Shown piece after piece: positions 57,138-57,565 of a stretch of DNA of 64,000 nucleotides. Position numbers and translations under genes: made by a program. Positions within the stretch are counted from its first letter, which is position 1, and every line of letters begins with the position of its first letter. The stretch comes from Bacteroidota bacterium (lineage in GTDB: Bacteria; Bacteroidota; Bacteroidia; Chitinophagales; Chitinophagaceae): assembly GCA_013286305.1 (NCBI GenBank), contig JABDFW010000003.1, positions 30,287 to 94,286 of the forward strand, given 5' to 3'. Under the pieces are notes generated by a model. That model did not search any database and was not told the DNA's origin. It saw only the letters and a program-made list of their open reading frames with translations.

Positions 57138-57162
57138 TAAAAAAAGCTCATATAATGAGCTT
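57138..57162 (-). terminator. Rho-independent terminator-like hairpin 3' of tRNA 3' half
   Basis: Minus strand AAGCTCA-TTATA-TGAGCTT followed by a T run. Confidence 0.7.
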
Positions 57163-57164
57163 AG

Positions 57165-57221
57165 TGGAGAATACCGGATTCGAACCGGTGGCCTTCCCGC
57201 AAATACTTGCGGGACGCTCTA
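57165..57221 (-). pseudogene. tRNA-Ala-like 3' half with substituted anticodon arm
   Basis: Minus strand TAGAGCG-TCCCGCAAGTATTTGCGGGA-AGGCCACCGGTTCGAATCCGGTATTCTCCA; T-arm and 3' acceptor strand identical to the intact tRNA at 57492-57565. Confidence 0.8.
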
Positions 57222-57464
57222 TACTTTTCTGAGTAATGCCTCGATATATTTTCTGCTTTTCTTCTTCTTTATTTCCTGTTCTCGATTGAGAGCCTCAAGC
57301 CGGTTTGTAAACACTTCCGTATATTTTAGTTCCCAGTCATTCGCTTTTTTAGTTGATTTTGAACCTGAATTTTTGTGCCGATAAAGCCTGTCTATCAAAT
57401 TTGATGTTTGACCAATGTAGTGTTGATCTAATGCAGAAGAATATATTATGTAAACATAGAACAT
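57219..57464 (-). CDS. Single-domain GIY-YIG nuclease
   Basis: MFYVYIIYSSALDQHYIGQTSNLIDRLYRHKNSGSKSTKKANDWELKYTEVF; GIY-YIG core (YVYII..YIGQT) and UvrC-like Arg/His. The longer ORF start at 57533 lies inside the tRNA, so ATG 57464 is preferred. Confidence 0.88.
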   Translation of the reverse strand: MFYVYIIYSSALDQHYIGQTSNLIDRLYRHKNSGSKSTKKANDWELKYTEVFTNRLEALNREQEIKKKKSRKYIEALLRKV

Positions 57465-57489
57465 CCTAAAAAGCTCACTTTGTGAGCTT
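57465..57489 (-). terminator. Terminator-like hairpin between tRNA-Ala and GIY-YIG ORF
   Basis: Minus strand AAGCTCAC-AAA-GTGAGCTTTTT; duplicate of the hairpin at 57138-57162 with a different loop. Confidence 0.6.
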
Positions 57490-57491
57490 AG

Positions 57492-57565
57492 TGGAGAATA
57501 CCGGATTCGAACCGGTGGCCTCTTGCATGCCATGCAAGCGCTCTAGCCAACTGAGCTAATCCCCC
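57492..57565 (-). tRNA. tRNA-Ala (anticodon GGC)
   Basis: Minus strand GGGGGATTAGCTCAGTTGGCTAGAGCGCTTGCATGGCATGCAAGAGGCCACCGGTTCGAATCCGGTATTCTCCA; cloverleaf pairs, loop ATGGCAT, G3:U70 acceptor pair (Ala identity). Confidence 0.95.

Follow-up and report, generated by a model that had tools for sequence, protein, structure and literature searches.

A GIY-YIG nuclease gene within hairpin-marked tRNA gene duplications: a candidate minimal selfish cassette of Bacteroidota

Why should a small nuclease gene lie between an intact tRNA gene and a partial, altered copy of that same gene? The question arises from a tRNA-Ala locus in a 64-kb stretch of Bacteroidota DNA (hereafter the window, i.e., the whole stretch analyzed), for which the sequence-only reading had proposed that an insertion left part of the tRNA duplicated, with a working tRNA kept upstream. 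This is matched by the empty and occupied orthologous loci described below, and we consider it fairly likely that the locus holds a minimal selfish cassette, which joins the center of a tRNA gene and brings the missing half with it.

The locus is read on the minus strand. It starts with a promoter-like site, TTTG-N19-TATTTTTG (58109–58139), upstream of a degenerate tRNA-Ala 5' half and the whole array of seven 76-bp pseudo-tRNA units (57566–58098). The array is followed by an intact tRNA-Ala with the anticodon GGC (57491–57565; ARAGORN; Rfam RF00005, 65.3 bits) and by a terminator-like hairpin, GCTCACAAAGTGAGC with a T-run (57468–57487), which is the cassette copy of the terminator. Just behind this T-run is the ATG of an 81-aa ORF (57219–57464) encoding a protein of the GIY-YIG superfamily (Pfam PF01541, E=3.2e-15). 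The ORF is followed by TAGAGCG, a D-arm remnant overlapping its stop codon (57215–57221), by the TCCCGCAAGTATTTGCGGGA hairpin replacing the anticodon arm (57195–57214), and by a repeat of the variable loop, T-arm, and acceptor 3' strand that matches the intact tRNA without a difference (57165–57194). A second terminator, GCTCATTATATGAGC with a T-run, closes the locus (57138–57160); by its position, as inferred from the empty-site pairs, it is probably the native one. The promoter-like site agrees with TTTG/TAnnTTTG, the Bacteroidetes promoter consensus. The TAnnTTTG motif is also situated directly 5' of the bare tRNA in two empty loci (L183 and L272), and the site is probably the native tRNA promoter.

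Each 76-bp unit consists of the tRNA-Ala 5' half, a TCCCGATAAGCATTCGGGA-type hairpin like that of the second tRNA copy replacing the anticodon arm, and a degenerate T-arm, and the first 5' half of the array, located behind the promoter-like site, is degenerate. Repeat detection yielded a tandem array of about 7.4 x 76 bp (57539–58099) with 98% matches, and a genome pattern search found seven TCCCGATAAGSATTCGGGA hairpins at a spacing of 76 bp (57596–58070; the first at 57596–57614, the last at 58052–58070). The sequence-only reading had missed both the hairpin in the anticodon-arm place and the significance of the upstream array. Its account of the remaining parts stands, namely the GIY-YIG ORF on the minus strand (57464–57219) after the intact tRNA-Ala and its hairpin; the repeat offset by 327 bp, which comprises a 54-nt block with 93% identity; the second terminator stem GCTCA..TGAGC; and the ORF stop codon TAG forming the first three bases of TAGAGCG. 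The claimed second tRNA 3' half (57221–57165) has to be amended: its 3' part is indeed repeated, but it is not a plain half, since TCCCGCAAGTATTTGCGGGA replaces the anticodon arm. That the second copy might be an independent tRNA gene is ruled out by the alignment and by the empty sites.

At gathering thresholds, Rfam found no intron match in the window, and the tRNA was the only Rfam match at the locus. The GIY-YIG ORF is the sole gene of the cassette, which encodes no integrase or recombinase; PF01541 was the only match of the ORF product, with no match to a Y1 HUH (TnpA_REP) enzyme. Elsewhere in the window, two adjacent ORFs (23697–25885) are tandem paralogues whose N-terminal regions (MKKELYVHIPTPCHEDWQQMTPVDKGRFCESC) are almost the same and whose C-terminal ends resemble each other, and two short arrays of 14-bp repeats containing CCATGG occupy positions 27750–27921.

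The host genome (3.58 Mb, 161 contigs, about 70% complete) contains a second cassette, located at tRNA-Lys(TTT). Here, 73-bp pseudo-tRNA units with TCCCGATTTTATCGGGA precede an intact tRNA-Lys, a terminator, and a GIY-YIG ORF, behind which lie a tRNA copy bearing the hairpin and another, truncated copy of the ORF. In the genome-wide search of GIY-YIG genes for flanking tRNA fragments that the sequence-only reading had suggested, three of the five PF01541 matches fall within the tRNA-Ala and tRNA-Lys loci. The remaining two are an ORF on contig C69 with no nearby tRNA (L004) and a match in a 608-aa open frame on contig C40. The former (L004, 1200–2000) is a more distant GIY-YIG ORF, and its flanking repeats carry a different palindrome, GCTGAATTTATTTCAGC.

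At a third locus, tRNA-Arg(ACG), hairpin units are present without an ORF. These units lie behind the tRNA-Arg (L047, 480–2040, contig C19), with palindromes also in the D- and T-loops, and a DUF2807 gene (PF10988, E=1e-47) is situated between two pseudo-tRNA segments, as if it were the cargo of a cassette. Palindromes of the TCCCGATAGCTATCGGGA type were seen at L026, L099, and L047 inside D-loops, T-loops, terminator loops, and even another palindrome, i.e., as nested hairpins. The hairpin pattern has 76 matches per strand in the host genome, a good part of which fall in three tRNA arrays, and 21 in the control. A dispersed genome-wide palindrome family was considered and rejected, the excess outside the tRNA arrays being only modest.

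Presence and absence of the cassette at orthologous sites were both observed. The tRNA-Val loci L182 (occupied) and L183 (empty) have common flanks and an identical intact tRNA, and in L182 the native terminator comes after the hairpin-marked copy. The tRNA-fMet loci L271 (occupied) and L272 (empty), with flanks 96% identical, differ by one clean insertion of ~350 bp between CCCGAAGGT and CGTAGGTTC; the insert comprises a T-arm/acceptor copy, a terminator that does not match the native one, and the ORF, together with a remnant of the anticodon loop and the hairpin. In both pairs about 350 bp were inserted, with the native 3' flank behind the hairpin copy. Among further genomes of the L271/L272 genus, the cassette is present in two (L278, L282) and absent from one (L279). 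A search for an empty site of the tRNA-Val element in genome G220 gave no useful orthologue, and in the genus of the window itself the neighboring gene was not found in two other genomes.

The direction of such changes is a separate matter. In g168, the genus of L271 and L272, ORF identities of 70, 69, and 82% are accompanied by flank identities of 70, 65, and 78%. Given this agreement, the empty sites may be precise losses through recombination between the tRNA repeats, and the sequences suggest mostly vertical descent of the element with precise losses; a recent horizontal gain in this genus is unsupported by the ORF and flank divergence.

The arrangement is widespread. A search profile built from 18 relatives had matches in 176 of 396 genomes of the order (E<=1e-15), and 113 of 190 fetched ORFs at the order level lie no more than 150 bp past the 3' end of a tRNA on the same strand. 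Among 231 fetched GIY-YIG loci from Bacteroidota and relatives, a count that includes overlapping loci (L226 and L059 are one locus), 178 have a same-strand tRNA within 900 bp upstream. In 27 of the 53 loci lacking such a tRNA, a T-arm motif adjoins the ORF, and those inspected proved to be interrupted tRNAs, gapped assemblies, or mirror forms. Chance association is excluded, because there are 148 distinct tRNA-to-ORF junctions of at most 150 bp versus an expectation of roughly 0.2% per ORF (our own rough estimate for about 40 tRNAs in 4 Mb).

The tRNAs at the cassettes represent eleven amino acids (Ala, Val, Met, Arg, Lys, Asp, Ser, Leu, Pro, Asn, and Phe). The same arrangement was seen in a separate set of 80 named loci from, e.g., Flavobacterium, Algoriphagus, Echinicola, Aquimarina, Maribacter, Mucilaginibacter, and Pontibacter, as well as in a few MAGs of Ignavibacteria, Melioribacteraceae, Calditrichota, and Cloacimonadota. 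No cassette copies were matched in phage and plasmid records. Tandem ORF units are present in 49 loci with a median spacing of 341 bp, and pseudo-tRNA arrays lie upstream in 41 of 148. A mirror form, with a tRNA-Gly 5' half, the hairpin, the ORF, and then the intact tRNA, was found at L248; both there (1930–2330) and at L254, a 5' half bearing the hairpin precedes the GIY-YIG ORF, and an intact tRNA-Gly lies downstream of the ORF. At five loci (L214, L238, L209, L222, L242), the leading tRNA of the cassette is present only from the anticodon onward, and the DNA before it looks foreign, as though an integrative element had inserted into the same tRNA.

The tRNA 3' end is repeated behind 90 of the 151 ORFs that have a tRNA, and in 73 of these 90 a CCCG..CGGG hairpin lies between the D-arm remnant and the T-arm. 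The anticodon arm gives way to the hairpin in tRNAs for Ala, Val, Arg-TCT, Lys, and elongator Met, whereas the tRNAs for initiator Met, Asp, and Ser have it further 3', near the variable arm or T-arm. Among 158 distinct hairpins, the positions adjoining the CCG/CGG core form Watson-Crick pairs in 83–91% of cases versus 33–62% if the sides were independent, a comparison in which the way of picking hairpins somewhat favors the outer pairs, not the inner ones; beyond these covarying pairs the pairing ends sharply. The two 3' copies within one locus are 94% identical (perfectly so in 60 of 94), and those from different loci of one isotype are 66% identical, which is a low estimate from an ungapped comparison.

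The nuclease itself is conserved. The catalytic positions of the GIY-YIG domain, with its catalytic Tyr, Arg, and Glu (Y5, Y16, G18, R26, H30, and E62 were scored), are kept in about 97–99% of 231 proteins, and with a median dN/dS of 0.13 (30 pairs) the ORFs are under purifying selection. By sequence, the closest structure is UPF0213 1zg2 (E=1.6e-9); by fold, the AlphaFold model of the 81-aa protein (pLDDT 87.9) is again closest to 1zg2 (E=1e-3), followed by SLX1, with I-TevI far behind. On both grounds the protein is predicted to belong to a UPF0213/SLX1-like subgroup. In a tree of 204 proteins, 158 of them carrying a tRNA label, the isotype changes 37 times versus 89 with shuffled labels, and the host family 59 times versus 104. 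The isotype clades span host families, while ORF and flank divergence agree in g168. The idea that tRNA genes are the target, already present in the sequence-only reading, gains from this tendency of nuclease lineages to follow the isotype and from the recurrence at many isotypes, although the clustering could also arise from elements simply staying at one tRNA locus. In 107 of 133 loci the ATG has a T-run no more than 25 nt upstream, and in 30 the two adjoin; expression by read-through from the tRNA transcript is therefore likely.

A single scheme would cover the ORF-behind-tRNA form, the mirror form, the tandem ORF units, and the pseudo-tRNA arrays. The element would comprise, in this order, a tRNA T-arm/acceptor copy, a terminator, the GIY-YIG ORF, a tRNA D-arm copy, and the hairpin. 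It would join the chromosome within a tRNA gene, at or near the anticodon arm, such that its 3' half completes the chromosomal 5' half to a working tRNA, and its D-arm and hairpin end up abutting the displaced native 3' half. Joining on the opposite side of the hairpin would produce the mirror form, with the hairpin copy upstream and the ORF before the intact tRNA. The outcome would in effect be a tandem duplication of the tRNA center, one copy working with an anticodon arm and the other bearing the hairpin. We infer that the enzyme, given its resemblance to the branch-specific UPF0213/SLX1 nucleases, cuts either the tRNA center or the hairpin, the latter as a cruciform or a single-strand hairpin, and that cassettes are gained, multiplied, or lost when the cut is repaired by way of the tRNA-derived homology; over several rounds, tandem ORF units would build up, as would mini-units with no ORF, of which the 76-bp array is an example.

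The selfish cassette, which by implication would move between genomes, is favored by the tRNA-Lys locus, the empty pairs, the isotype-following lineages, the hairpin covariation, the tandem units, and the mirror form at L248. Against it speaks g168, where the ORF divergence matches that of the flank and the element seems to have been inherited and lost, with no recent gain. Also unfavorable are the negative result in phage and plasmid records, the small catalytic domain, and the intact tRNA of occupied loci, which a nuclease aimed at tRNA genes would cut in its own host. Two mechanistic versions of this explanation can be distinguished by what the enzyme would act upon.

The first version, tentative and rather doubtful, holds that the UPF0213/SLX1-like enzyme acts on the hairpin (as a cruciform) and not on the tRNA gene: cassettes would be opened at the hairpin joint, leading to array expansion and excision, and host homologous recombination would proceed via tRNA segments of ~30–50 bp. 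The nearest solved relatives being UPF0213 and SLX1, the covarying stems, and the presence of the hairpin in every array unit all point this way, and recombination between T-arm repeats would yield precise empty alleles. However, such a mechanism alone does not explain why nuclease lineages keep to one isotype, save through the need for homology.

The second version, which we regard as somewhat unlikely, is that of a strict free-standing homing endonuclease, which would recognize and cut the uninterrupted tRNA gene of a cassette-free genome and have the cassette copied in by double-strand break repair, the hairpin marking and protecting the former cut site. It fits the isotype-specific nuclease lineages, the existence of empty alleles, and the similar hairpin position among loci of a given isotype (directly behind the anticodon stem for Ala, Val, and Arg-TCT; near the variable arm or T-arm for Ser, Asp, and initiator Met), and has a precedent in phage T4 SegB, a GIY-YIG homing enzyme among tRNA genes (PMC2988022). 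Three observations are at odds with it. Firstly, the intact tRNA of occupied loci is identical to the empty allele; therefore, classical destruction of the target by insertion is not evident, and a nuclease cutting the tRNA gene would cut its own host, unless the homing target is the flanking context or the hairpin copy. Secondly, the divergence in g168 is nearly vertical. Thirdly, with a catalytic domain of 81 aa and no obvious or separate DNA-binding module, the protein is small by the standards of site-specific homing enzymes.

A quite improbable alternative is a locus beneficial to the host, in which the nuclease and pseudo-tRNAs would, e.g., guard tRNA attachment sites from integrating elements or regulate tRNA expression. 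Purifying selection, the long residence with mostly vertical divergence in one genus (g168), and the leading pseudo-tRNAs behind a tRNA promoter are compatible with such a role, but presence is patchy with precise absences among related genomes, degenerate copies have no ORF, and integrative elements have apparently entered the same tRNAs at several loci. Finally, an ordinary tandem duplication that trapped a neighboring GIY-YIG gene by chance would account for tandem copies nearly identical within a locus, but it is refuted by the recurrence of the arrangement: one gene family is involved at more than ten isotypes across many families, with the same hairpin substitution and with empty sites devoid of the ORF.

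The selfish cassette resembles several known systems in part. By both sequence and fold its nuclease is nearest to UPF0213/SLX1-type nucleases (1zg2, 7cq2, 4xlg), which occur as stand-alone proteins or as enzymes of host repair and are not known to belong to any tRNA-derived cassette. Prophages and ICEs at tRNA attachment sites likewise restore the split tRNA with a carried part; unlike them, the cassette has no integrase, is only ~330 bp long, leaves a hairpin in the remnant, and in the mirror form supplies a replacement 5' part. RAYT/REP and other palindromic elements also combine a small nuclease-type gene with repeated palindromes, but here the palindromes reside inside tRNA copies beside the gene and no Y1 HUH enzyme was matched. 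Group I introns enter tRNA anticodon loops, some with homing enzymes; in contrast, no intron was detected here by Rfam, and tRNA function is kept by the carried half, not by splicing.

While UPF0213/SLX1 are closest in fold, the closest system in context is T4 SegB, whose gene is located between tRNA-Arg and tRNA-Ile, with the target listed as "tRNA intergenic region" (PMC2988022). Such free-standing GIY-YIG homing endonucleases share with the cassette both a gene in a tRNA region and a tRNA region as target. Unlike SegB, the cassette is chromosomal, encodes only ~81 aa, sits inside the tRNA gene with a carried half, leaves a hairpin-marked remnant, and forms tandem arrays; its nuclease is nearer in fold to UPF0213/SLX1 than to I-TevI. 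We do not class this nuclease among the homing endonucleases.

No description of this tRNA/GIY-YIG arrangement was found in the literature searched, which lay mostly outside subscription journals. Its recurrence at many tRNA genes suggests a mini genetic parasite that is widespread and, it seems, of an undescribed kind; if this reading holds, the cassettes have gone largely unnoticed because annotation shows only "tRNA" and "GIY-YIG nuclease." More tentatively, integrase-free tRNA-center cassettes might constitute a new class of mobile units, each built from a ~80-aa GIY-YIG nuclease and a pseudo-tRNA hairpin as the attachment site, with isotype-specific lineages widespread in Bacteroidota and relatives, shedding ORF-less array units and perhaps carrying other genes. 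If the selfish-cassette reading holds, the cassettes, at about 330 bp and with a single 80-aa enzyme, would rank among the smallest self-spreading units known, and tRNA genes of more than ten isotypes would have been colonized across a major bacterial phylum. They would also offer a tractable case of a parasite settling in an essential gene, of nuclease lineages following one tRNA, and of the origin of tRNA-derived arrays, and the cassette provides a concrete substrate for learning what small UPF0213-type nucleases cut.
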